Source of the DNA: Ectocarpus siliculosus
Lineage: Eukaryota > Sar > Phaeophyceae > Ectocarpales > Ectocarpaceae
Direction of reading: 5' to 3'
Length of the DNA stretch: 64,000 bases
Assembly: GCA_000310025.1 (NCBI GenBank)
Contig: FN649741.1
Location: forward strand, 631,615-695,614
Part shown: positions 9,901-43,001 of the stretch, piece by piece
Numbering within the stretch: the first letter of the stretch is position 1
How the letters are laid out: each line of letters starts with the position of its first letter
Position numbers and translations under genes: made by a program
Notes under the pieces: model-generated
Told to the model about the DNA's origin: nothing
The model's input: only the letters and a program-made list of their open reading frames with translations
The model's database searches: none

Positions 9901-12900
9901 CGGCTAGGTACTCCGCAAACCAAGAGATGGGGCAGCTAAAACACCATGACCGCTGTCTGCTTTTCGTGTCGCATTTTTTTAACCCATACGTGACTGGGTT
10001 AATTTGGATTTTTTCCGTTTTTTCCCCACAGCTGGCTCTCTGCGGTCAAAGATCTTCCAAGCATGCGTGTACACCCATAAATCACGGCGGCAAGCATGGT
10101 GCAGCAGTGGGTCCATGTGTGGGGCTCACAGGGATGGGGACGCGGTATATGTAAGAGTGACGAACAGGAGTACAGTAGTACTACTGCTGTACAGCAGTAG
10201 CAGTTATGCTGAGAGAAATAGACTACAGCAGCAGCAGTAGTTTCTGAGCAGGTAGGTGATGTGCATGCCTGTCTCCGACAGCAACCGTCCGCACAGAGGA
10301 TGTACCTGTGCAAGCAATACCTGTTGGCACATCTTCTCCACCTCATCCTTGGACAGAGCATAGGGCAAGCGCATGTATATGCTAGCGGCACTAGATGCGA
10401 AGACGCTGACGGGAAACCGCCTCACAGAAGCGCCAGATCGACGAAAAAAACGGCCCGCTCATCAGAGAATCGAGACCATCATGCACTATCGCACAAAATG
10501 CATAAAAATCGTGATGAGTCTTACTGTTCTGTACTACAAATAGAGAGCTGTGATCGGAGCTGTAGTCCCGAAAACCCTTGCCTTTGAGCGAAATTTTGCA
10601 CACAGCAGACGAACCACCCTTCACTCCCAATACTGGGAACCACACGCACCGCAACCACAACAACATCAAGCACCGAGGCAGTACGTTAGCATCGGCTCCG
10701 GTGTGCGCTTTCTCTGCTCTCCCCCGCGGATGCGGCACCGGGTTGATCACATGTTCAGGGTGCGGTATTGTGCGTTTGAATCTTAGACTACATACAGCAG
10801 TAGATTGGATCTGGAAAGGCTATCTGCCCCCACGTCAGAAAGATGAGGCATGGGTGAATAGTGTTGTACTATGTGAGTCCTGTGCGCATTGCTGATAAGC
10901 GTGCTATTGGGGTGGGCTGCCTGTGTCTCCCTGCTGGTCTCTATGTAGTTTTTTTACTCTTAGCCGAGGCACAACGGCGATCTTTCGGCACCCAAAGTGA
11001 TCGGAGCTGAGAACGGAGCTGAATCGGCCTGTAGTCACGCAAGGGTTAATATGACACAACGAATCCATCTCTATCATAGAAAAGAGTCTGAGACAGATTA
11101 GCAATGAATTCATTGCGTCAGAAAGCACCTGTATGTCTACGGTTTCCCAGACAGCATATAGGGACATCTCCCCTGCGGGTAACAGGCTCAACAAGACAGT
11201 TTGGTAGCTGTCTTGTGTGTCTCATACATGTTATGTTGGGAAGGTGCAGCAGAAATGTGTTAGGTACTGGTCGGGCGTTTTGTGTGTATACACGGCTTGC
11301 TGGCTCTTTCGGGGGTAAATAGCCGGTATTTTCCGGCGGCGGCGTGTTTGCGTTTCGTTGTGTCATATTAAGAAAAATAAAAAAAAGAACTTTCCCACAG
11401 ATGAAATGTGGTTAGGATCGACCGGGCGAACCGGCTGACTTATGAAAGTACGTCAGTCTCGGTGTGGCTGAAAACAGGAGATGCTTTACAAAGGCCATGA
11501 TCTGAGACTGTATGAGGGGGTGTCATGGGAGAGGATAAGCTGCTCTCCGGACGAAAAGACAGAGGCGGTATACCGCAGAACTCGACATGTTCTGCAACCA
11601 CCAGGGGAGACGACGAGACAACCGTTACGCACCTGTGATGCCGGCATGTATGTGCGCTCTCCACACATACATCTCGTGAAATATTCTTGTTGAGGGAGAA
11701 CGGGCAATACCGCCAGAGGCGCGGAGAGATGGCACTCCCCCCGTTTGTAGACCTATTTTCAAAGCTCGATTGCTCCGACAACAAGCTTGTGCCGACACCT
11801 AAAATGGTGGTTTTGGAACCATCTCGTCGAGGGCTTGCCGTCGACGTACCGGGCTCTTTGCGCACCCCCTTGATTGTGGAGAAATCGAGCTTTGAAAATC
11901 GGTCTGGCGGGGGTGCTATCTCTCCGCCTCTTGCGGTAGGACTACAGCAGTACATGCCCTTGACAACGACAGACCGGGCCGAAAAGCTGAATCTCGTCGC
12001 ACGCATGCTTGCTTTCTGACACATCTTGGTCAGAACCGCGACCTTACCCCATGGCGGCGTAGCCTACACGCGACACAACAGCAGCACTGCTGCTGCTACT
12101 GCTGCTGTAGTGCAAGAAATGAGCTTTTCCGTGTACAAGCTCAGTCTCCACAAGGTGCCGCGACGGGTGGCCGTCATGTTGTGCACCGTACTTCGTAGTC
12201 TAAACTGCATGGCCTTGTGTGCCGAGAAATGACCGTATTGCCGGATTGTGTTGCCGATCGATGCGTGTGAGCGGCGTGTTTTTTTGGCGCAACCTAACGA
12301 CGTGTGTAGATCTGCTTCATTTCGTTCTTCGTTTTCGACGAAAAGTAGCATTAGTCGAATTATCAGCATTATGTTCGGATGGGCATGAAACGAGAATAAG
12401 TATTTTTCATGTCGGCACGACATCATCAGCGACCTTGTATAGTACTTCATACACCGTACTGCTGCTGTCGGTACATGGCCGAAAATGTCGTTCTGTTTCG
12501 AGTTTCCTTCTCCCCCCCCCCAATGCCGAAGCACGGGGGCCACGAGGAACGTTCTCCTCCATGACGCACCGCAGCGGTGCTGACTTAGAGTGACATTCAA
12601 GGGCAAAACCAAACGCGATTGGGACCTCAGGGCTAATGCTCGTGCTGCTGTACGTGCGTGGTCGAGGCTCATGACTAAAAAAAAAATGCTGCCTCTGCTG
12701 CTGCTGCTGCTGCTGTGCATCTGTGCATGTGTGCTGCTTGGCAACTATCCATACATGTACATACGCATAAACCTACACCGCTTACACCTTTGCTTCTACC
12801 TACCAAGCAAGTGCTGCAAACGTGAACAACGGCAGGCAGCACTCGCCTTGAACCGCTCTCCGCGGTAATCCTCCTCCCCTAGCTTATACTTCTGAATCAT

Positions 12901-28474: not shown

Positions 28475-28491
28475 TTAACCCTTATGTGACT
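28475..28491 (+). repeat. Left TTAA plus terminal inverted repeat of the 14.5-kb element
   Basis: Reads TTAACCCTTATGTGACT. The identical sequence in inverse orientation is at 42985-43001. TTAA is the target site duplicated by piggyBac-superfamily transposons, and the 13-bp CCCTTATGTGACT is the proposed terminal repeat. Confidence 0.85.
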
Positions 28492-29466
28492 GACTAAATT
28501 GTGGATCTTCCACGGGCTGTTGGAGGCCTAACTTCCGAACAGACCTTCGACAAATCGGAAAGAACAGCACAAGCGCACATGCGCACATACAAGCAGAGAT
28601 ACAGATAGTACATAGCAAGGGGAAAACAGCAACAGCAGCGCCAACAGAGCAACCTCGGGCACACAGCCTCGTTCGTATACAGCCGCAGCAGGGGTGACTC
28701 AAATCGAATGCAGCCCCGCTAAATTCAACGCTCGCTTGCCGTATACCTACTCGAGGTGACATGCATGCACAGCAGACAGATGAGCCGCTACATAGATAGG
28801 TTGCAAGACAGAGACAGAGCAGCACAGAGTGTACAGCACCAACAGCAGTAGTACAACAGCACAAACACCAACAACGATCAAGATGCAGCGGAGGTTCCCA
28901 CCTTACGGCGAAGTTCCATACTCATCACACGACAAAATGACCCAAACACACACGTTTTCAGTTTCCTTCAGGTCCTACGTGTGTGTGTGTGTGTAGACAG
29001 ACATATGCATATCTCATCTCCCTGAATCCGTCCACGCCGTTGTACATTTTTATAGTCTAGAGGGAAAAAACAAGACGAGCAGCAGCAGCTATAGCAACTC
29101 TTTTGTAGAGTTAGACGCTATTCCTATGGGTGCCCCCTGTGTTCGTCAAAGAAAGGTATCGACCATGCTGAATATCGTTGTCCGCGCTCGGATGTCACGA
29201 TATTAGATGGCTGCTGCTGCTGTGCTAAACACATACAAGGAGTGCAGCAGTCTTTGGCACAACATCTCAAGCGGGAAATCGTCCGTGGGGTGCAAACAAC
29301 TAGAAATAGTATAGAGGGGAGAGATAGTTGGAGAGAGAAACGTACCATTTCACAGACTGGGGGACTGGTAGTGAGGTTAGCAGTGAGGATAATAGTATCT
29401 TGAATTTAGACTGAGGCGTGACTGCTGGGTCCGCTTGTTCCACACACTGAGACACGAGACACCAGC

Positions 29467-30870
29467 ATGGCACACACAATGGATGAGGGGCAGGTTATAG
29501 CGTATTGGGAGGCAATGGCTAGCGAATACCATGCGACGGACAACCCTGATGCAATTTCCGAGGCGCTGCTGTCTATCCCAGCCGCGACCCCGGAAATGTA
29601 TCGTGGCGCCACGGAGGTTGCCGCAAAAGCAGTTGGGCGCCGTTTTTGCCCACATGGGAACGAGATCCCCGGACCCTTGCCCGAGATAAAGGATGTCAAG
29701 GACAGGCAAGCCGCGGCACGGGCGCATCCTGGGTTGTGCGGCCGTCACCATGTCCACCACATCGCCCACATTGACCTCGACGCCGCCGATGCGCGTGCGG
29801 GGGGCGAAACAATAACCTCCAAGAATCTTCGGAACCAGGTTAGTTTTGCTGCTGCTGCTGCTCCTGCAAACCCTTTTCCCAGGTTGAACTTGCGGGCCTT
29901 CTGTGTCTGAACAAGCTAGAGGTCCCCAGCGATCGCCTGCTGTCGTGCTGCTCTACATAACATCGGGTTTTGTTTGGGTTCATGTAGGTTGCCTACAGTT
30001 GTATGTGCAAGGTGAACCCCGGCAACAATTGGGCTATTTTGACAAATGCACCTACTACCACTGCTGTAGGCTACAGCAGTAGTCTACAAGACTATGCAGC
30101 AGTCCTCTACAGTAGTACATTGTAGTTATGCATATGGTGTACAACAACGTTGTTAGAACGGACGTACATAGTACACAAGTTTCGGTTTGCGGTCTAGATA
30201 GCACAGCAACAGAGCCGACGACCCCCATCTCGTGTGTAGTCTCGTACCGTGAGACCAGGTTGTTTTCTCTACAAAAGGAGTATATTATTTGTATCGATAT
30301 TACTGCTGTACATAGAAGTAGTAGTCGGATGGAGGCCGCTCTTATGTGTGAGCACATGTTGCTACATGTCTTCATCGAGCCGCACACGAAGTCCGCTGCG
30401 ACTCTGTTCCGGTTTAGACACCTCTTTTGTGCCGTCTTTAACTCTTCCTCAAGCCTCCCCCTCCCCCTCCCTCCCCCCCTTTTTACCGTGTGTACTGCTG
30501 TAGAACGCCACAAAATATCGCCCCGTCGAAGATGAATTGATTCTCGGCCGAACGACATGCGGTCAGGTTGTCAGAGAGCCCTCTCCCCAAGTCGCCCGAG
30601 TCACAACCGCCGGCGCATATACAATTCGAAATTGTCGATTTGTACCCCCGAGGGTAGCCTGTTGAAATATGTTTTCGGTGCTGTGCCGGTGTGTCGCTGT
30701 TTTCGTGTTGGCAGGCGTGCTACGAAACCGGCGTTGCCCTGAACGCCAGAGGGCTCGGGGTCCAGCTAGCACGGAAGGAGTGCTTCACGCAGGCGTGTCG
30801 TGCAATTTGGCCCGGCGATGCCCCCCTGCCGGAGCCCGTCGTCAACGCGCTGCATGCATCGCCGCCGTAG
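29467..30870 (+). CDS. Small Cys-containing orphan protein with a 24-nt microexon
   Basis: Three exons, 29467-29838, 29988-30011 and 30715-30870, all phase 0, give 183 residues. The junctions are CCAG|GTTAGT, TGTAG|GTTGCC, GCAAG|GTGAAC and GGCAG|GCGTGC. The product begins MAHTMDEGQVIAYWEAMASE and contains a His-rich stretch (GRHHVHHIAHIDL). Across the microexon it reads VAYSCMCKACYETGVALNAR, followed by two more cysteines (KECFTQACRA) and the end LHASPP; the Cys/His content suggests metal binding but no known domain was recognised. It lies inside the large transposon between its left end and the convergent transposase, so it is candidate cargo. The first exon alone is a convincing long open frame; the microexon is an inference from phase and Cys spacing. 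Confidence 0.6.
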
Positions 30871-32244
30871 AATCTTGAATGGTTTCGGTTATTGTAGCGA
30901 ACGGGGGTGGAAGAGGAAGGGACGCGTTGCGATACTGCCGTGGCATGACAATCAAATAATGAAGGGCTGCGATGCGTGCGTACGTGGGGCGAAAACGGAC
31001 GTCGACAAGGGGAGTTGTTTTCTTGCTTTTTGTGACAGAGTGGAGAGAGATGAAAAAAACCGATGAATTTTATCAGTTTGTGCAACACGCGACACCTCGG
31101 GGAAAACGCCACATGCAGGGGGTGCCCGCGATGTGTCTTTTGGGCTTTCGAGAGGCATCCCTGATTGCCATGCTGACAGCCTGACAGAAGCCAGGAAAGC
31201 GTGGGGAACCGTATTCCGGGTGTATTTTTCGTATTCATTCTCGGAACGGAATGCGCAACCGCTGACCTCGCAGTGTCTTGTACCGCTACCAAACTTCGTG
31301 TTATATAGCGACGACAGGACAGGGTAACAATTATACGTAACTTGGAAGTATATATTTTTGCTCTTCTACTGGAGTGGTCCGACACCAACAAAGTCACGAA
31401 TGCCAACATGAATCAGTAAAATAGGGGGCGCACGAAGAAAGTGCGCAGACGCAAGGAATCTTACCTAATCCACAAAAAAGTCTTTCTAGTACGCGTACCG
31501 TCTGCGCCTTCCCAGTGGGCACGGGCCGCCTCGCTGTGAGCATGGTCGTCCAAGTAGCACTCCTTGCACATCAACACCCCTGACTCACTCCCATTCGTAC
31601 AGTGCTTTGTGCAAATGCCCCCTTGTCGACCTCTTATCGCATGTAGGGTTCATGCAGCCCCTGGCATTCTTTAGCTTGACGCTACCCCACACAGGCCCGC
31701 GCGACGTACGCCGTCTCCGTTTCTTCCCGCCCTTGCCAACGTTACCCTCGGTACACCTGGCCATCAGAAATGTCGCCATCGCCTCGTCCCAAACAGCCCG
31801 CTCTACTTTCGCCAGCCTGTTCAACTCCGACACAGCACCCTCCAACTCTTGTACCCTGTCAATCGAGGCATTCTTCCGCGCTATCACCAGGCTGCCCCCC
31901 GCCTCCTTGTGCAACATGCGAACCCACTTCTTGAAAATCTGATAAGCATTGGTCAAGGCCTGCTCTATCTTAGCCTCCATGACGCGTCGCCAGTGATTGT
32001 TGTACGACTTGTGGTCGTGTGTGTGCGATCCGTTCTGTTGGTCGGCCGTATCGACTCCCCCCATTTCCCGAACATTGTCCTTGCGCATGCTCGGCTGCTC
32101 GGTTTGCCGTCCTTTTCCTTCGCTCCCGGCTTTCCGCATCCTTCCATGGTATTGGGGAAAACAAACATACATCGGGATGGACAGGAAAGGGGGTATGATC
32201 ACATTTAGCACGAAGCAGAGACATAATAACGTACGGAGTAATCG

Positions 32245-33115
32245 GCCCCCTCAATAAAACGGCGCAGCATCACAGGGGCTATTTTTGACCGGGCAGATGG
32301 GAGGTTCAATTACGTGTTGTGGCAAGGGCACGTGAAGGCAGGGCGGAACAAGTCATGACGTAAAAAAACATGCACACAAACACACACACAGCCTCCCCCA
32401 TGCCGCCCGCTCACGGGGTCCCTCTTCATGGCATTTAGAGGCATATTAGTTTTTCAACCGCACTGAAACTGGTGTCTTTTCATTGGCTAGCCGGTTATCG
32501 CGGTCGATGCTAATATGAAAGACACACCAAGGGTCTACCTGAAAAAAGAAATCGGGACACAAGCCCCCCCCCCCGGGGGAGGGAAATTTGGATTCTGTTT
32601 TTTAGAAAATAGTATAGTGGGTTTTGTTCAGGAAAATAATCCCCCCCCCCCCCCCTACTGCAGAGGGTTTCATGTCCACGGTGCCCCTTACGCAAATATA
32701 CAGAAANNNNNNNNNNNNNNNNNNNNNNNNNNNNNNNNNNNNNNNNNNNNNNNNNNNNNNNNNNNNNNNNNNNNNNNNNNNNNNNNNNNNNNNNNNNNNN
32801 NNNNNNNNNNNNNNNNNNNNNNNNNNNNNNNNNNNNNNNNNNNNNNNNNNNNNNNNNNNNNNCACCATCACCACCACCACGATTTTCGATTTGTGGGCCT
32901 TGTCTCATGTCTCTTGAATTTTGTTTCACGTTGACCCTTGGCCACACACACACACGTTCGACAAAAATAGACACAGAGTCTATATTGTACAGGGCAGGTG
33001 GGAGGTTCAATTTCGTTTTGTGGCAAGGACACGAGAACGCATGGCGAAACGGCCAAACAATAACGCCCCCTTCCCATACAAAAGACACAACATCACAGAG
33101 TTATTTACTGGTATT
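32245..33115. repeat. Repeated intronic segments around the first gap
   Basis: A stretch at 32260-32345 (including gggcagatgggaggttcaat and gttgtggcaagg) recurs at 32985-33040, and aaaacggcgcagcatcacag (32257-32277) resembles aaaagacacaacatcacag at 33078-33098, so the two blocks are permuted. This lies in the transposase intron 32090-33216. Duplication or redundant contig ends could explain it. Confidence 0.5.
32707..32862. other. Assembly gap (156 N)
   Basis: Undetermined bases inside the transposase intron. The preceding 150 bases have long homopolymers (C13, C15) and look like poor base calls. Confidence 0.95.
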
Positions 33116-33979
33116 GCTAGAAGGTAGGCGGGGAGTTGATCTATTTTTCATCACATGGACAATAGAAGGCGGCAGGGCGAAAGAACTGAAAGGAACCCAA
33201 ACCCGCATATACTCACTGGAGCGGAAGAGGTTTGAAGTGGTTGATCCCACCATCCACCAGCTCCTCCCCCTCGCCCGGCTGCGCGATGTGGATGGTGCTA
33301 CACAGGAGGACATCTTTCGAGTCCTTCCACTGCACAAACGCGACCTCTCCCGAACGGCAGAACTGCATGTCACCACGTTCGACAAGCTTGTGGCCAAGGC
33401 TCTTGAGGTATGGCACCGCTCCGGCCGTTCGATCGGAACGGCACGTGCCAACCGCAAAGATGTCGTGGGACGCCAAGCACTCGAACAGCGTCGGGTTGGT
33501 GAAATAGTTATCCATGGCGACGTAAACGCCGGATCCAACGAGCTTCTCCTTCAACACCGGACTCGCGCCAAGCAGCACCCAAAGCACCTGACGCGTCGTG
33601 CGCCCGAGTGGGCAGTCCATCCATTGACGTAGGTTCGGGTCTCCGGTCATCCCCCCGTCGACGCTCGATATCAAGCAGTACCCCTCTACATCGCACAGAG
33701 CCCACACTTTGATACCTGTTGTTACAGCGAGGAGGGAAATCCGGCGGGAAAATAAGGTCACCCACGACTAGGGTTTTTCCCCGGCTCGATAAACTGGCAC
33801 CGGGTATCTGCGGGTTGGAACCCCGGTACCCGGGTAAAGGGGGGGGTTCGCCTGGTATGTTCCCAAGCTCTAGCTTGGGTCTCAGTCGATCAAAAGTCTT
33901 TTTTTTCCGTCTGTGGAGTTTTCAGTAGCATAGCGGACCCCTTGCCCGACCGGGTCGAAAAGGCCGATCTCAGCCCACA

Positions 33980-34628
33980 CTGCGAACCTCCGAGAACTAC
34001 CAGCAGTTCTGGGTAGCTGAGACGATTTCAAGACCTCTCACAGTCGTTTGAGCATCTATCGCTTGCTGTGGGGCGATAACCAGTTTCTCCGTCGACAAGA
34101 AGATCTGCGTTACATCGTCACATCGGAACGACCAGATTGGTTGACTTGTCGTTGAGGGTCCTCTTTTTATAGATCTTTTTGTATAAGAGTCGTCTTCATT
34201 TTTTTCGCCGCCCGCGCCAACCCTTCTTTTTACAGATCTTTTTATATAGAGTCGTCTTCTTTTTTTCGCCGCCCGCCCCAAGCCTTGCTTGCTTCTCTCG
34301 TGTCCCGCGCCAAGCCTTGCTTGCTGGCTACGCTTCTCTCGAGATGCTGACCGACCTCAGCACACAGCTGGACATTCTGTGTACATACAGCAGGAGCTGC
34401 TTTTGTTCTGTTGTTGCAACTTTCTGCATGGATGGCTCTTTTGTGGTGCGAAAATTAGCATTTATTGTTGTTGTTGATGTGCGGACGAGAGGACGAGAGT
34501 GGTAGGCAAAAGCAGTACGTACCTGCAAATCTCCGGCAACTACCAGCAGTTCTGGGTAGCTGAGACGATTTCAAGACCTCTCACAGTCGTTTGAGCAGCT
34601 ATCGCTCGCTGTGGGGCGATAACCAGTG
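33980..34628. repeat. Direct repeat of ~105 bp in the transposase intron
   Basis: 33980-34084 and 34522-34628 share accagcagttctgggtagct, gagacgatttcaagacctct, cacagtcgtttgagca and gctgtggggcgataaccag with few differences. Between them an internal ~75-bp duplication (ctttttatagatctttttgtata and variants, 34160-34290) is also visible. Confidence 0.8.
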
Positions 34629-35756
34629 ATTTTGTGATTTTCTTCCTTAGTCTATAGTGACCGTTGTACACATGCGGTGGCTGCTGTTATGCTCGGAAGA
34701 TGCTGCAAAGGTCATAAGGTTATCGTCTCTGTCGCTTGGGCTGCACGCCGTGCTCGCGTAGGAGATGCGCATTCCTCATTTTTTCTCTGTGCCGATATCC
34801 ATGAAGAAAAGCAACGGCAGCACGGTTGAAGATACAGACAACAGACGGTCCGCCATACCCTTTTTTTTTTCTTCTCTTACATGCATGGATGGGTGGTAAA
34901 GCATCGCAAGCGTGTTGCTGCCTTACTTACCTTTAGTGTGCTGCGTAGTCGTAATTTGAGCGATAAGGGGTAGATGGCAGGACAACAATCTTATTTGCGT
35001 AGTGAGGTTTGACAACTGGTCGTTCGTGGAACGGTGCGCGTCTATCGCGACGGCAAGCGTATTGAGAAAATAGTTCGTCCGTGGTGCTTCTCGTCATCAT
35101 TTTCTATTTCGTTGTCACTTCATACTTCATACCACAAGTGATGAAAGAGAGTCTCCACAGTTAGTTCGGAAACGGCGACTATATTTGGTTTGTTGCGTTT
35201 GTTGTTGCTGAGCACACATCGGATGTCGTCGTTCGTTACAGCCTGCGGTGGGCCACAGGGACGAGAGTGAGTGTCTTCGGTTAGGGTCTCGAGAGTTAAT
35301 TAATGCCTTCTCTACGCTTTCTTCTGTTGATCTACGTAGTAGTAGCACCTGTCTCTCCTTCTCGCCTATTATCGCCGTTGGGGTCCCAACAACATCGAAC
35401 GTCAACCGCAATCGTTTTTCTTCTTGCTGAGTAAGAGGCTATTTGTGTAGTACGTACCCGGCTGCTGTATGTGAGGCGATGGGCGCTGCCTCTTTACTTG
35501 AAGCAACGGGGGCATGGCCCCTATAATGTTTGCTGCATGCTGTGCTATGTGACAGCTTCCAGCGGTTCAGAGCGGCGACGGTGGTTTTCGTATGCTCTCT
35601 TTTGCCACCTCCCTGAAGCCTGTCGCGTCTGGCTCACTTGTCTTTGTCGTCCCTTCTTCTTTTTCTTTTTTTTCTTAACATAGTCTATATTTTATTTTTC
35701 CGCTTGCTTTTTGGGGTCCGCCGGTCATCCGCCCACCACCCATTAGTTCAGTTTTA

Positions 35757-35786
35757 AATGTTGTTGTTGTTGTTGTTGTTGTTGTC
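35757..35786. repeat. (TTG)n microsatellite
   Basis: About nine TTG triplets in the transposase intron, just right of the first long repeat copy. Confidence 0.85.
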
Positions 35787-36929
35787 TTCGCATTAAAAAC
35801 CGTTCAGATCTCTCTCTACCCAGTACCTTCATATGTGCGTACTGATCCAACACTTGACGCGGTCGATTCCCGTGGTCACAGGCTAACTTACCCTAAAAGA
35901 GGTACGCTAAAACAAACTGGCCCCGAAAGGGTCCGCAAGTCAATAAAAATCAACGACAGATATTCTTTGGAACGGGGTGTTTACTTGCCATCTCTATGCA
36001 AGTTTCACAATTAATTTTGAAGCTTTTCTGAAGCTAGTTGAAACAGTAGTGTCATCGTTCGATATCCGTTCGGTGAGGAATCAATCGCAAATCATGACCC
36101 GTCCCCGAGTTGTAGCAGCTTCCGCCTCCTGGGGCCGGCAAGAGTCGGCCTTCACTGCTGTACCTTGTCTGTTTCGCCATGGGAATGGCCGGTTCAAAGC
36201 GAAAGAGGGTCCTGCGTGCTGCGCGCCACCACCTTTTTTTTTTTGCGTTTGTTTGTTGTTGTGATTTTCTTCCTGAGTGACCGTTGTTGTACACAACATG
36301 CGGCTGCTGCTGTACACATACTTGCGGTTGCTGCAGTATATGCTCGGAATGAATGTGCTGAAAAGAAAGGTCGTAAGGTTATCGTCTCTGTTTTTTTGGG
36401 CTGCACGCGTTGCTCGCGTAGGCGATGCGCGTCTCCTACTTTTTTCCAGTGTCGTTGTCGGCAGCACAGTCAGTTGAAGAGACAAACAACAACAGACGGT
36501 CCGCCTTGTTTTGTTTTGCTGCATGCATGGTTGGTATGCATCGGCACGCGTGTTGCTTCCTTGCCTTGAGTCTGCTGCGTAGTCGTAATTTGAGCGATAG
36601 GTAAGCTAGATGGCAGCACAATCTTAGATACTACGTAGTGAGGTATGATAACCAACAGCTCGTTCGTGCAGCGGTGCGCATCTATGGCGGACGGCAAGCG
36701 TATTGCGATAATAGTTCGTCCGTGGTGCTATGTAGTCGTGCTCTTTTTAGTTCTCACTTCCTACAACAAGATAGTAGTCCACAGCTCGCACACGGCGACT
36801 GACTATATTTGTTTGTTGTTGTGCTTGTTTGCTGTTGCTGAGCCGACATCGGATATCGCCGTTCGATACACAACGTGACATCATGTCTGACAGCCTGCGG
36901 CGGGCCAGAGGGACGAGAGTGAGTGTCTT

Positions 36930-37010
36930 CTCGACAGAGTCAATGCCTTCTCTTCTCGAGAGAGTCAATGCCTTCTCTTCTCGAGAGAGTCAATGCCTTG
37001 TCTTCTCTCC
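36930..37010. repeat. 27-bp tandem repeat, three copies
   Basis: Three near-identical units built on gagagagtcaatgccttctcttctc, within the second copy of the long non-coding repeat; the first copy (near 35290) has only one equivalent. Confidence 0.85.
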
Positions 37011-37487
37011 GCTCTCGTATTTTTGTCTACCTCTCTTTCTCTCTCTCTCGCCTTTCGCCGGTAGGGTCCCAACAACATCGAACGTCAACCAACCGCAGTC
37101 GTTTCGCTTTTTGCTGAGTAAGAGGCTACCCGTGCATCCGGCTGCTGCATGTGAAGCGATGGGCGTTATGCCAAGCAATGGACTTGGGCCCTACCTAATA
37201 TTTGCTCCATATGTAGTGCTATGTGAGAGTTTCCAGCGGTCCGGAGCGAGCGGCGACGGTGCTTTTCTTCTATGCGCTCTTTTGCCTCCTCCCTGAAGCC
37301 TGTCGCGTCTGACTCGTTTGTTCTCGCTTCTTTCTTTCTTTTGTTTTTCATGCTTTTGTTTTTTGGGGTCCCCCGGTTCCTGTGTGCTCATCGGGCATCT
37401 TCTTGGTGTCTACCTTGATTGTTACCCGCTGCAAAAATCGAAAGCTTCAGACAGGCAACGCGACGATACTCGTCGAGATGCCATACA

Positions 37488-37557
37488 CAATGAATTCATT
37501 GCTAATCTGTCTCAGACTCTTTTCTATGATGGAGATGGATTCGTTGTGTCATATTAA
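37488..37557 (-). repeat. End fragment of the TTAA MITE, inverted
   Basis: Contains aatgaattcattgctaatct, ctcagactcttttctat and ends ttcgttgtgtcatattaa, the reverse complement of the left end of the element at 11046-11371. The rest of the element is missing, so this is a truncated copy. Confidence 0.7.
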
Positions 37558-40500
37558 GAAGAATAAACATAAAAAAACATCCTGTCGTTACTCTATCGAT
37601 ACCTCACACCCACCCCTACTCACGCCGACGCAGACACAGACAGGCAGACTCAGCTCTTTCGCCTGTGCTGTATCTGTTGTTCGTGCGTGCTGAAAAATGG
37701 TACATACAGCAGCAGCTTACCGCAGCAGGAGCTGCTTTTTGCTTGTTTGTACAGCTTTTCCTGCAGGGATGGCTCTTGTTGTGCGGCAAGTTGCATTGTT
37801 TGTTGTTGATGCGGACGAGAGGACGAGAGTGAGTGGTAGGCAAAAGCAGTACGTACCGTGTTAAAGGGACAGACAGAGTGCCTACCGTGTGTATGTAGAC
37901 GTTGCATTTCGTGATTCCCGAGGATCGGATGTATGTGTTGTTTTTTTATTGCGTACCCGCGTCCATCACGACCATTATTGCGTAGTGTGTCGGCTAATTA
38001 AGGTCCTTCCCGTTCGTGGTGTCAGCACACGCGCAACACGCGACTAAAATAAAAATATAAAGCTTGGGACTAGCAACGCCGACGATATTCGTCGGCTTGC
38101 TTTCAACAATATAATATAATATGACGTACCCCGTGATTCTGTGGGCGCCGTGCCACCGGCTTTGCTGCGTACGAAATATATCACGATTTACCCTCCAGGT
38201 CTTGGGTGCCGTGTGTCAAACCCAAATGCACATCTGATACAAGACTGATGGAAGTGGAACCGGCCGTGTATCCCAGTCCCGGGAGGCGTGTACCGGGTTC
38301 TGCCCCAGTCGGGACACAACACTATCCAAGCCGACCGCGAAAGAAAAAAAAACGTACTGCCTCGCCCTGCCGCTGCGTATGTAAGGCAATCCAAGAGCAA
38401 AAAAGCTGAAAGCGATGTCAATTCCCCGAATTTGTGTTCAAAACGACCAATATCATAAAATAAGATCAAACAGCTCTGAAACTACCCAGTAAAAAAAGAG
38501 AGGTTCAGCCAAGCAACGCGGACGATGTACTCGTCGCGTTGATTGTCACAAGAAACGAACACCGAAAATATTGTGGGACTCACCGTGAGTGATCGGCTTC
38601 AAGGGGTTGAACCTCTGGAGGAACTTGGAGAACGTCGAAACACTCTTGACCATCTGCTCGTCATAGGCCAGCCACTGGTTGATGTCCACGTTTTCCGCCC
38701 AGGCTTTGTTCAGAATTTCCTCCAGCAACCTGCCGAGATGTGACGAAGGCACGGGTGGTGACGACAGAACACGGGATATAATAAGTGACAGTGTGGGCGG
38801 ACGTCATCTCCCCGAACGTACCAGATACACTGACGGCACGCGTGTACTGGGCCCCGAATGCAAGCTGGGACATCACGGTCGGCGAGGAAAAGCTTTATTA
38901 ACCTTAGTGCCGTCCTCATGTACACGCCAAATTCAACGCAAGGGACTAAAAACAAAAGTAGTAAAATAAAAATACAGAAATACACCGATTTTCGCTAGCA
39001 CGCGACGGTGACGGATTGCCGAGAGTGAAGGGTACTGAGGATCTTGTCACGTCTTTGTAACGGAGAAACGGGTACCAGACGAAGACCAACCAAAACCAAC
39101 TAGAAAGGAATACAAACCGCCCGTCTCACCTGATGTGCCACTTGGAGTCGTAGTCCGGGTTTTCTGTGCCGTCGTTGAGGAGCCGCGAGGGTGCGTTGGC
39201 GTCGGAGCAGTGGATGAACCGACTGTACAGCAGCTCGAACTTGTCTCGCGGCATGCACTTGCGCACAAGAGGGTAGTTGTCGTGTTCTGATGTACTCCAG
39301 TGCTTTCTCATACGGGTTTTCTTCGTGAGTCCCATCGTAATCGTGAGGCCAACCATGCCGTAGATGTTGTCCTCGTTGAACGGGTTACCCTGGTCTGGCT
39401 CGGCGGGATCATCCAAGGTAACGTGACCGTGCGTCCTTTTCTTCGATCGCTGGTGCTTACGCCGAGGGTCCACCTCACCCTCTAGCGGTTCCGTCGTGCA
39501 ATGCTCAACGTAAGCATTCGTCTGGGCGGAGAACAAACGACGAGGGGAATGGGCGAATGGGTGACGTGGTGGATAATTTATTAGGTTCGTTGCGCATTTT
39601 GCTACTACAGCAGTACGAGTGGTTCAAGTATGCGCAAACATGCAAGGGATGCGGTCGTGATGCGCTTCCTGTGCGGTCCAGCCTTTCACCTAATTTGTTT
39701 CGCCCGAGAGAAAATGATGTCCTGCAGATTGGTGCAACATGACGATTTCGGCGTATCGGCATCGGTAGATATTTCGGCTGGGGTGAGTTGGGAGGTGGGA
39801 TAGGGGGTCAACAAGTGTGGTATATCCGTACGCCCTGGACCCGAGCGTCTCGTGTGTCATATCGTTGGGAGGAGGGACGTTCAGACAGAGTTGCACCGGG
39901 AGAGGAAAAAACGATCTCGAGGTCCAAACACACCGACCAATCGGGTATAATCAGAATGTACGAGCACCTATTTCAAAAAAGTTAACGGGAGGACAATGAA
40001 AACCTTCTTCCCAACCTGCAATTTTCAAGTGAAACAAATGCCGTGTGTGTCTTCAACAACAGTCATGCCTACAACACAAACAACGCCAGCGGGGAACAAA
40101 TCCATGAAGGAGGGAGAGGGAAACATTTTATTTTATTGTTTTGCGTTGTACGAAGTCGACTTTTGTACGACACAGTGGCTGATCCACTTTCGGGTGAGCG
40201 GGCCCGGCTCTCGTGCCCGGCGCATTCGGGGTGCAAAATACGGGACACAAAAAACTGCAAAAAAAACAAGACGCACCTTATCAACGAAGAGTTGTACTGC
40301 CTCTTTGGGGGAGTTCATATCGAAGCACGTCCCCACCACTTGCTCGATCGCGAAGGCCCCGGAGTTGATGCCGATCGCCTCCATGAACTGGTCCATCGAC
40401 GGCATCTTCTCCTGCGCGCTCTGGGATAGCGACACCGGGCTAGCAGAGGACCCTGCCGAGGGTTTCTTGTTGCGCCTTTTGTACGCGTCCGTGTTCTCGA

Positions 40501-41281
40501 AGTCTGGGATCACCGCTCCGACCAATCCCAGGACTCATCGACTTCCTCCTCCTCCTCCTCCACCACCGGTTTCGGCTGCCGCCGTTTCTTCGGCTTTTGG
40601 GGGGCTGCACGCGCGCCACCCTTTGCTGCCTTCGCTGCCTCTGCTGCCTCCTTCGCTTTCTCGTCCTCCTCTTCCTTGATCCTGAGGAGCTGCATTGGTC
40701 ATGTTGCGGGAAACCATCGGCCGGGGGGGTGGGAGCAAAGAAGTAGGCAGGGACGTCATTTGTCATAGGGGTCGTGATTACGCAGACGGAACACGAACGC
40801 AAGGCGGGTGCAAAAATAAAAAATAGTAATACTACCCATTTACACCAGTGCAGCGCAGCAGGGAACGGCGCTTCAAGCACTTGCAACATGTGTGAGCGCC
40901 CAGAAAACATGAAAGGCTAATACACAGGTGGCCAGGAGAGTCCAGGGCACGGGTGCTGATGAACGCACGACAAAAAAATAATGCAACAATAAAATTACGG
41001 AAGAAACCAAACCATTGACGGTCAACCTACAGCGCAGCACACAAGCAACTTGGACACGTAACGTTGACTCGCTAAATAGCGAACAACAGATGTGAGCAAG
41101 TCAAACGAGCTTGAGGGACGGTGTGTGCTGCATTCACGAACGAGAAGGGAAGAAGAAAAAGTTGCAAGTGCCAGCACCACCAACGGGTAGCCTCGATTGT
41201 ATGCAAATGTAGATTTCTAAGGAAGAGACACAGATCGCAGTAGGCGGCATGGAAATTCTGAAGCGAATGCCAAAAGCCCAC

Positions 41282-42724
41282 CTTATCACCCAAAGCCTTC
41301 CTCTTGTTGCTAAGAAAAAACGCCCGCTGGTAGTCCACTTCCTTGATCTTCCTCATGTCCGCCGCAAGCTTCTTCTTACTCTTCGTCAAGACCGTCGACG
41401 CTCCAGGGATCTTGTGGTGCGTCCAATCCTTTCCTCCTTCACCGATGCTGCCGTCGGAGTCGTATGACGCATGCGGCTCGAGGTTGCCGGTTTTCTGTTT
41501 CCCCCGCCTGCACGCGCCTGACTCTTTCTTGATCACTCTGTCCTTCGAGTTGGGAGGCGCGCGCGTCCCGGACCCAGCGGGCTGCTGCTTATCCTTTCCA
41601 AAAGCACGCTTTTTTTTCACGGGGCTCCCATCGGTCCCCAACCTCGTTCGCGAAGGTCGGGTCGTTCGTCTGCCATCCTTGTCCAGACACGACTTGTACG
41701 TGAGTCTCTCCTTAGCCTTAGGGACACCCCTCTTCTGGCGTTCAGTCGGCCCGAAATCCGGCGAAGGTGCGGTCTCCCTCGGGTCCTCCGGCTGCTGTTG
41801 CCCTCCGCGGATTTTATCCTCGAATGCGGATGCCGCGTCCGCTCCTAGTTCCAACCAGTCGAAGTGGTTGTTCCTGTCGTGAGCGTTTTCGTCTACAACG
41901 CCGTTGACGCCAGAACGTGCCGCCCATGGATCTCCTACATTGCGGAACAAAAGGTGGATCCAGTAATCTCCGGCCTCGTCCATTTTTAGTGCTTTGTCGA
42001 ACAAGAAGAGACCCCTGGCGCTGACTGCTGAATAAAGCGTTGCGTTTTGTCCCGACCCCGTAGGCTCCCACACTGCGATGTTTACCTCGTACAGGTCTGC
42101 GATGAAAGCCAGCCAGCTAACGTCGAGCCACTCCTTCTCAATTTTTTCCTTGACTCTTGCCTCGAACCAATCGCACCTTAGCTCGCCTTTGGGCTGCCCC
42201 TTGATCACTTCGCCAGTAGCACAATTCTTGATTTCAGTCAACCCCACATCGCTGCCCTTCGTCACCCCATCGCCTGAAAGTGTTGCCTCGGGGTCGAATT
42301 CTGTCCCGAGCACGTGCCGGAGTAGGCAGGACACCAGGGCTGTCTTGATGGCATCCACATCATGCGGGGTGTTCACTTGCCCTTTACAACCCAGCAGGCC
42401 ACCACGTATGGAGTGGTACCCGCACGACCCGTCGCCGGCTGCATGCTTGACCCTTGCTATATCCACAGGCAGGAACACTGTGCGGGTTTCGCGGCCGCCG
42501 TCGCTGGTTTCCTTCTTCTTTCGCTCGACGCACTCCATGGAGATTGGCTTTGCTGCAAGACGCGCACGCTCGAACGCGGCACGGCCTCGCACGGCAGGCT
42601 GTGGTTGAAGCTCGTTGCATGTCAAGGCGCCATCGCACAAAATCCATTCGCTATCTGCCACAGCAGCAGCCATGGTGGACAGACGGAACACTGCAAGCAG
42701 TAGCGTGAAAAATTGGGTCCTCAT
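41282..42724 (-). CDS. OTU-type cysteine protease, transposon-borne (possible N-terminal part of a transposase fusion)
   Basis: An intact open frame from ATG 42724 (or ATG 42673, MAAAVADSEW) to a splice donor AAG|GTGGGC at 41282; from 42673 this is 464 codons ending in phase 0. The N-terminal region contains the catalytic Cys box HAAGDGSCGYHSIRGGLL; further on, WLAFIADLYEVNIAVWEP and the catalytic His box NNHFDWLELG complete an OTU fold, a family that mostly cleaves ubiquitin. A long basic Lys/Arg/Ser-rich tail follows, likely nuclear or DNA-associated. Downstream the next acceptor (before 40689) is also phase 0 and opens the transposase N-terminal exon, so a single OTU-transposase transcript is possible. 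If not spliced, the frame runs on to a stop at 41072. The initial hydrophobic stretch after ATG 42724 could mimic a signal peptide. Confidence 0.72.
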
Positions 42725-42984
42725 CGGGCCTGTTGCCCGCCTTTTGGTGTTTGCGCGCGAGAGGCAGGTCTGTCCTCGTGTCGTGGGGCTGCTGAACATG
42801 TGGAACTCCCGCGTGTGTTTATTTTTTTCGGAGGGACTCTGCTGCATGTGTCCACGCACGGCGCGAGCACGCGCGCACGCGATCTATTCGCGCTGTATAG
42901 CCCTTGGTCGGCAGTGCTCAGAACACCAAAACTGTATAGCTAGGAAGAGTAACCTCACTGCTATCCTCACCCCAGCGTGGGGTT

Positions 42985-43001
42985 AGTCACATAAGGGTTA
43001 A
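42985..43001 (-). repeat. Right terminal inverted repeat plus TTAA of the 14.5-kb element
   Basis: AGTCACATAAGGGTTAA, the exact inverse of the left end at 28475-28491. A small palindrome (CCCCAGCGTGGGG) sits directly inside it. The OTU start codon lies about 260 bp inside this end and the first IML1 exon about 300 bp outside. Confidence 0.85.

Follow-up and report, generated by a model that had tools for sequence, protein, structure and literature searches.

A TTAA-bounded piggyBac family in Ectocarpus siliculosus with a predicted fusion of an OTU-like domain to the N-terminus of the transposase and a convergent second gene

Unrelated transposition enzymes, those of Ginger1, Mutator and Helitrons, have been described with a ubiquitin or SUMO protease domain joined to them (PMC2836005, PMC9741609). 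In Ginger1 a DDE transposase of the Gypsy-integrase type is joined to a C-terminal OTU (or Ulp1) protease domain (PMC2836005). Some Helitrons, which use a rolling-circle RepHel enzyme and no DDE transposase, have OTU or viral-tegument-like deubiquitinase domains in their protein, and a protective role has been proposed for these domains (PMC9741609). Among elements with a piggyBac-type transposase, Teratorn is described as carrying extra genes and, with its herpesvirus genome, reaching about 180 kb (PMC5601938, PMC10175614, PMC6431247), and the terminal repeats of piggyBac elements follow a rule of 12-19 bp with a CCYT start (PMC10175614, PMC5601938). For Ectocarpus, four PiggyBac families have been listed along with giant KDZ, EnSpm and Sola-1 elements with accessory genes (PMC12477816); the term OTU is absent from the main text of that source, and the family described below may figure in its supplementary family notes.

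The element analyzed here lies in a 64-kb window, by which we mean the whole stretch of DNA under analysis. It shares with the piggyBac superfamily the TTAA target, a short terminal repeat starting CCCT, a PF13843 transposase and a Cys-rich tail, but differs in having an N-terminal OTU-like exon, a second, convergent gene and a size of about 10 kb. The likeness to Ginger1 would lie in the joining of a DDE transposase to an OTU-type domain, whereas the transposase is of the piggyBac type, with only PF13843 and no Gypsy-integrase-type DDE found, and the OTU-like domain is upstream, at the N-terminal side. With the Helitrons it would have in common that a transposon protein includes a domain of the deubiquitinase type, and extra genes beside a piggyBac-type transposase are shared with the far larger Teratorn. 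The giant Ectocarpus elements (PMC12477816) resemble it in host group, in nested insertions and in the common presence of accessory genes. No OTU-piggyBac fusion was found in the literature searched. The sequence is best read as a piggyBac lineage of brown algae that has two genes and an integral domain of probable deubiquitinating function, a function that we infer, and we hold it to be fairly likely as a whole that a TTAA piggyBac family of about 10 kb combines an OTU-like-transposase fusion, a convergent partner gene and a deubiquitinating role. If this is true, it provides a piggyBac instance with the domain at the N-terminus, where a conserved junction and many near-identical copies make the purpose of such domains in transposases testable within one family, and the widely used piggyBac transposase family gains, for study, an N-terminal fusion of natural origin along with a potential partner protein.

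The interval 28475-43001 is bordered by TTAA and a perfect 13-bp inverted repeat. The combined sequence TTAACCCTTATGTGACT is present in the window at 28475-28491 (+) and 42985-43001 (-) with 0 mismatches, and allowing up to 3 mismatches the window holds 4 matches where 0.08 are expected. Between the borders we find the piggyBac transposase exons, an open OTU-like frame and a two-exon gene on the plus strand, and the 17-bp perfect inverted sequence that the preliminary description had placed around these three parts is thereby confirmed. The 13-bp repeat itself fits the piggyBac rule for length and start. The features are as follows, with C187 and C122 denoting two further copies described below.

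28475..28491, plus strand: left end, TTAA target site and 13-bp terminal inverted repeat CCCTTATGTGACT; end common to C187 and C122
29467..29838, plus strand: small gene, exon 1 (124 codons)
30715..30870, plus strand: small gene, exon 2 (51 codons plus the stop); junction shared by an Undaria gene model
31460..32140, minus strand: exon 6, MGGVDTADQQ and Cys-rich tail, end approximate; PF13843 E 0.0049, short of the curated cut-off
32707..32862, no strand: assembly gap (N)
33217..33715, minus strand: exon 5, piggyBac transposase core with AMDNYF; PF13843 E 1.1e-12
33860..38109, no strand: nested insertion foreign to the family (4,250 bp); absent from C187 and C122
38584..38729, minus strand: exon 4, piggyBac transposase with YDEQM
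39130..39521, minus strand: exon 3, piggyBac transposase, part of PF13843; E 1.6e-8
40277..40689, minus strand: exon 2, Lys/Glu-rich linker and transposase start, frame break in the window copy
41282..42673, minus strand: exon 1, open for 464 codons: putative OTU-like domain (Cys box GDGSCGY, His motif NHFDWL) followed by a basic linker
42985..43001, minus strand: right end, the left-end sequence in inverted orientation, including TTAA; end common to C187 and C122

A search of the genome for further copies with matching ends, as had been proposed, gave two near-full-length copies of the same family (family A) besides that of the window, C187 and C122, of 10.2 and 9.4 kb, and the OTU-like and small genes recur in both, so that transposase, OTU-like exon and small gene are all present in 3/3 near-full-length copies. 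Since the 4,250 bp at 33860-38109 are absent from both of the other copies, the natural unit is about 10.2 kb; 14.5 kb is ruled out as the natural size, and the idea of a giant element has to be given up. Parts of the nested insertion are repeated elsewhere in the genome. The window thus contains one copy, now decayed and with a different repeat nested inside it, of a piggyBac family of ordinary size (about 10 kb). A fully open family-A copy was not seen among the three: the transposase is interrupted in the window copy, exon 1 in C187 and both parts in C122.

In the window copy the transposase frame is broken twice, in exon 2 and, close to the tail, in exon 6. Splicing of exons 2-6 of C187 gave one open frame of 712 codons that matches PF13843 (DDE_Tnp_1_7) with E 6.3e-38, the sole Pfam family at E ≤0.1. 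The YDEQM, AMDNYF and MGGVD motifs are present in both the window and C187 and presumably carry the first, second and third catalytic Asp, respectively. The exact ends, the other copies and the PF13843 transposase together uphold the assignment to a TTAA-bounded piggyBac element.

Exon 1 was initially described as an intact OTU cysteine protease ORF. Its open frame and its Cys and His motifs stand, while the Pfam OTU model does not recognize it: PF02338 gave no match to exon 1, and none of its 25 matches at E ≤1 over the whole genome is at these loci. No library or profile searched names the domain OTU, and for family B, a second, diverged family of the same genome, weak Pfam matches to SidE_DUB (E 0.034) and ALN (E 0.14) were both short of the cut-offs and were left unused. 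The OTU label is therefore a putative one, given on the conserved Cys and His motifs only. The Cys box was found in 27/27 and the His motif in 26/27 of the stretches examined, and a Cys box followed by a His motif is what we take to be the hallmark of OTU cysteine proteases. Exon 1 is about 37% identical between families A and B (pS 0.75 versus pN 0.44), and the Pylaiella gene model P0003, which also departs from the second and third catalytic-Asp motifs of the transposase, is without the His motif. The negative profile searches would suit a front domain that is conserved but unrelated and no protease; we regard this as unlikely, because A, B and C472, three diverged lineages, all retain the two motifs in the order seen in OTU proteases. 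An in-frame Met at 42724, upstream of the exon 1 frame, would add a hydrophobic N-terminus, which is conserved and is odd for a nuclear enzyme.

The OTU-like ORF had been regarded as cargo, a view that is not supported because it has the appearance of the opening exon of the transposase gene, which it probably is. The exon 1/exon 2 junction is in phase 0 in both families, A and B, the residues flanking it are similar, and exon 2 has no Met ahead of the conserved region. Two database gene models run through the junction; against the fused query, P0003 matches at 41% over 98% of the length and P0002 at 50% over 85%. Relatives of P0002 in viral contigs and of P0001 in phages were looked for and none were found. 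A phase-0 splice of the OTU-like exon to the transposase, giving one predicted protein of about 1,175 residues (464 codons from the window and 712 from C187), is strongly supported at the sequence level, and the predicted order is OTU-like domain, Lys/Glu-rich linker, DDE core and Cys-rich tail. Alternatively, the OTU-like ORF could be a separate gene beside the transposase within the element. The window copy and C187 each retain a different part open, the splice is a prediction from sequence, and some family-B copies without transposase exons 4-5 still keep the OTU-like exon and the small gene, which would fit an OTU-like product working apart from the transposase. We nevertheless give a separate gene a rather low probability, since the phase-0 junction is kept across two families, both gene models join the two parts and exon 2 offers no start before its conserved region. 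One frame at C12:1703960, 1,235 codons long and including an OTU match, was rejected as proof of a one-exon fusion, as it is mostly N gap.

Taking the OTU-like domain as fused to the transposase, we suggest that the enzyme would cut and paste at TTAA like other piggyBac enzymes while the tethered domain would strip a modifier, ubiquitin or one related to it, either off the transposase or off proteins of repair and chromatin that are present at the break. Removal of the modifier could then allow the transposition complex to escape degradation. The fuller proposal, an old brown-algal piggyBac lineage whose N-terminal deubiquitinase, together with a dedicated small partner protein, counters the ubiquitin-dependent destruction or silencing of its transposition complex, is put forward as tentative. 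Being protease-like, with Cys and His motifs, and tethered by a long linker, the domain might also cleave the fusion itself and free the transposase, rather than act on ubiquitin, but this is improbable as no cleavage site was identifiable and, to our knowledge, the known OTU enzymes act on ubiquitin.

It is clear that the OTU-like exon and the convergent small gene recur with most transposase-core loci of the genome, across diverged families. Among the 25 core loci, the OTU-like exon is upstream on the same strand at 19/25 and the small gene is on the opposite strand at 22/25; the small gene is present without an OTU match at 4/25, and neither is present at 2/25. A family-B OTU query likewise gave no match at the four loci with a small gene and no OTU match, C91, C50, C16:1849347 and C137, which may hold a highly diverged OTU. 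Transposase-only copies, which would speak against the element as described, are lacking among the near-full-length family-A copies; on the other side stand the two core loci with neither gene and a diverged remnant on C15, with transposase pieces and a right end and no OTU match. Young family-B copies are found at many different TTAA sites, and because the identical layout recurs at many insertions the OTU-like exon and the small gene do not look like chance baggage. Chance capture of host genes, as in Pack-type cargo, would be in line with the frequency of accessory genes in giant Ectocarpus elements (PMC12477816), but is strongly disfavoured and very improbable in view of the fixed order and strand at these loci and the presence of both genes across families so diverged in exon 1.

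The small spliced gene inside the element, as had been proposed, is present, with two exons on the plus strand, but it is no orphan: it has relatives, including an Undaria gene model with 42% identity over 81% that reads through the same exon junction. Because almost every transposase core has retained the gene alongside it, its small Cys/His-containing product might, more tentatively than the fusion, be a dedicated transposition partner.

That the two ends in the window stem from different insertions, or match by chance, as the large unrelated insertion and the N gap between them might suggest, is refuted by C187 and C122, in which matching ends enclose these genes, and by the empty site of C187, a paralogous match on C63 with a single TTAA (104/104 bases at 97%). 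For the insertion in the window, a search of the assembly turned up no empty site. In family B, 15/21 termini adjoin TTAA; the C12 sites are CTAA-like, and the left ends of C187 and C12 have two additional A.

The window copy of the element (28475-43001) is bounded by a perfect 17-bp inverted match, TTAA plus a 13-bp terminal repeat, without a mismatch at either end. Allowing up to 3 mismatches, the window contains 4 matches against 0.08 expected, well in excess of chance. When the host genome (189 Mb, 492 contigs) was searched for copies, the left end was matched at no fewer than 5 places and the right end at no fewer than 8, and the two were paired at four: the window, contig C187 (10,202 bp between the repeats), C122 (9,373 bp) and C28, a 248-bp remnant with both ends. 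In alignment, pieces of the window copy are mostly 96-98% identical to C187 and 89-94% identical to C122. The biggest difference is a 4,250-bp stretch at 33860-38109, absent from C187 and C122, which run straight across, and therefore the natural unit of this family (family A) is about 10 kb and not 14.5 kb as the preliminary description had it. Parts of this nested insertion are found again elsewhere in the genome; direct repeats occur inside it, and a pair of inverted repeats was not found. The copy on contig C234 is truncated and has sequence of the OTU-like exon, the transposase and the small gene. C16:8036733 and C17 match near the right end only.

On the minus strand of the window, six exons are consistent with splice signals and phase:

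42673-41282, minus strand, exon 1, OTU-like
40689-40277, minus strand, exon 2
39521-39130, minus strand, exon 3
38729-38584, minus strand, exon 4
33715-33217, minus strand, exon 5
32140 to about 31460, minus strand, exon 6

Spliced exons 2-6 of C187 form a single open frame of 712 codons matching PF13843 at 6.3e-38, which bears out the assignment to the piggyBac superfamily. The OTU-like ORF had been taken for a separate gene. Since the boundary between exons 1 and 2 is phase 0 on either side, and no methionine precedes the conserved region in exon 2, this ORF very probably represents the first exon of the transposase gene, joined to the rest by a predicted splice. A second, diverged family (family B) has the identical phase-0 junction, flanked to left and right by similar residues, and the junction is traversed by two database gene models, P0003 (1,157 aa, Pylaiella) and P0002 (979 aa, with the front of the OTU-like domain missing). 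Named protein matches to the element genes come from Ectocarpus, Pylaiella and, judging from the model name Undpi1, Undaria. The predicted protein P0004 from Ectocarpus sp. CCAP 1310/34 carries PF13976 and PF25597, which we take to be Copia-type, and has part of the OTU-like domain at its end (78% over 187 residues); the combination may reflect either a nested insertion or an artefact of the gene model. Ahead of the OTU-like domain lies an in-frame hydrophobic N-terminus (window 42724-42674) in family A (MRTQFFTLLLAVFRLST), family B (MMLFFLLLVAIFRTSA) and the C472 locus (MIPFFLLLLAIFRTSS), which looks like a signal peptide and would be odd in a transposase.

A genome search with PF13843 gave 29 rows, or 25 core loci after removal of 4 second exons of loci already listed. 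The OTU-like exon lies within 12 kb of the core at 19 of the 25, upstream and on the same strand in 19/19, and the small gene lies near the core at 22, on the opposite strand in 22/22. Co-occurrence was counted with one row per locus (34 of 56 rows for the OTU-like search, 49 of 89 for the small gene); counted from the OTU-like loci, the small gene is within 16 kb in 23 of 34, convergent in all 23, and absent from 11. The proposed recurrence of both genes with the transposase is borne out, and what is shown is a piggyBac family bounded by TTAA in which two additions recur. Some core loci depart from a strict rule: the small gene occurs without an OTU match at C137, C91, C50 and C16:1849347, C7 and C183 have neither, and the family-B OTU query also found no match at the OTU-less core loci. 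The C15 locus, a remnant with diverged transposase pieces (81-83%), the right end and no OTU match, likewise runs counter to strict OTU co-occurrence.

The OTU-like protein query found more than 20 further host loci at 33-38% identity, most of them 97-100% identical to the family-B query from C57. Two family-B copies read whole, C456 (8,283 bp including the TTAA ends) and C12, are 99.9% alike except for one variable stretch; transposase exons 4-5 are missing from both, with breakpoints that differ, and the OTU-like exon and the small gene are kept. Exons 4-5 are retained in C57. A terminus of the sought form was present in 21 of 24 OTU-bearing loci scanned, with TTAA adjoining in 15 of the 21.

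Exon 1 is open in the window copy and has the Cys and His motifs expected from the proposed OTU cysteine protease; the protease name itself did not find a library match. No library searched (Pfam, NCBIfam, PHROGs, PDB sequences) names the domain, and PF02338 found 25 other places in the genome and none of these loci. The motifs run from a Cys box (GDGSCGY, PDGHCGF or GDGKCGW) through WxDVxW and a VNI stretch to NHFDxL, presumably the order of OTU, and for these reasons we call the domain OTU-like. The Cys box is present in 27/27 and the His motif in 26/27 stretches from 26 places (the exception being L031), which represent just three independent lineages (A, B and C472) because most are near-identical family-B copies. 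P0003 lacks the His motif.

The transposase would act like other piggyBac enzymes, and the tethered domain would strip the transposase, or proteins at the break, of ubiquitin or a relative of it; the small protein might, at a guess, be a partner. Comparable proposals have been published for Ginger1 (PMC2836005) and for Helitron deubiquitinases (PMC9741609). No OTU-piggyBac fusion was recognised among the literature matches listed, in a search covering a minority of subscription papers. An Ectocarpus transposable element paper reports 4 PiggyBac families, and its main text does not contain the word "OTU" (PMC12477816).

The small gene encodes 175 residues with several Cys and His, its exon 1 has no Pfam match, and its frame is open in C187 but disrupted in C122. 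It was called an orphan and is not strictly one: P0005 is a homolog (87% over 73%), and so is P0006, an Undaria model (42% over 81%) that runs through the predicted splice. More diverged relatives without a nearby OTU match occur at C399, C50, C91, C33, C107, C137, C10 and others, and diverged relatives lie near transposase cores at C50, C91, C137 and C16:1852512.

None of the window, C187 and C122 copies is fully open (0/3): in the window copy exon 1 is open and the frame is broken in exons 2 and 6, C187 has open exons 2-6 and a shifted frame in exon 1, and C122 is broken in exon 1 and in transposase exons. Exon 1 shows about as much synonymous as replacement change between the window and C187, as expected of decaying copies. 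Between the exon 1 sequences of families A and B, pS is 0.75 against a pN of 0.44, consistent with constraint on the protein.

The C187 insertion lies within a repeat, and its flanks joined via one TTAA match C63 over all 104 bases at 97%; C63 is a paralogous empty site. For the window insertion only its own two flanks were matched, and no empty counterpart was found in the assembly. The TTAA of C122 is past recognition. Two extra A stand between the target site and the left terminal repeat in C187 and C12, the latter with a CTAA-type target. The family-B copies C456a, C53 and C24 are flanked by TTAA at each end and look as if they sit in the 3' end of a repeat with a poly-A tail. Such a 3' end with TTAA is present at about 37538-37575 in the window; this type of site is occupied by those three copies and also flanks a small element at 11049. 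That element (9979-11049; 1,071 bp) is TTAA-bounded, has no DNA match to the interiors of the family-B copies compared and, with its imperfect, family-B-like terminal repeats, is probably a non-autonomous relative.
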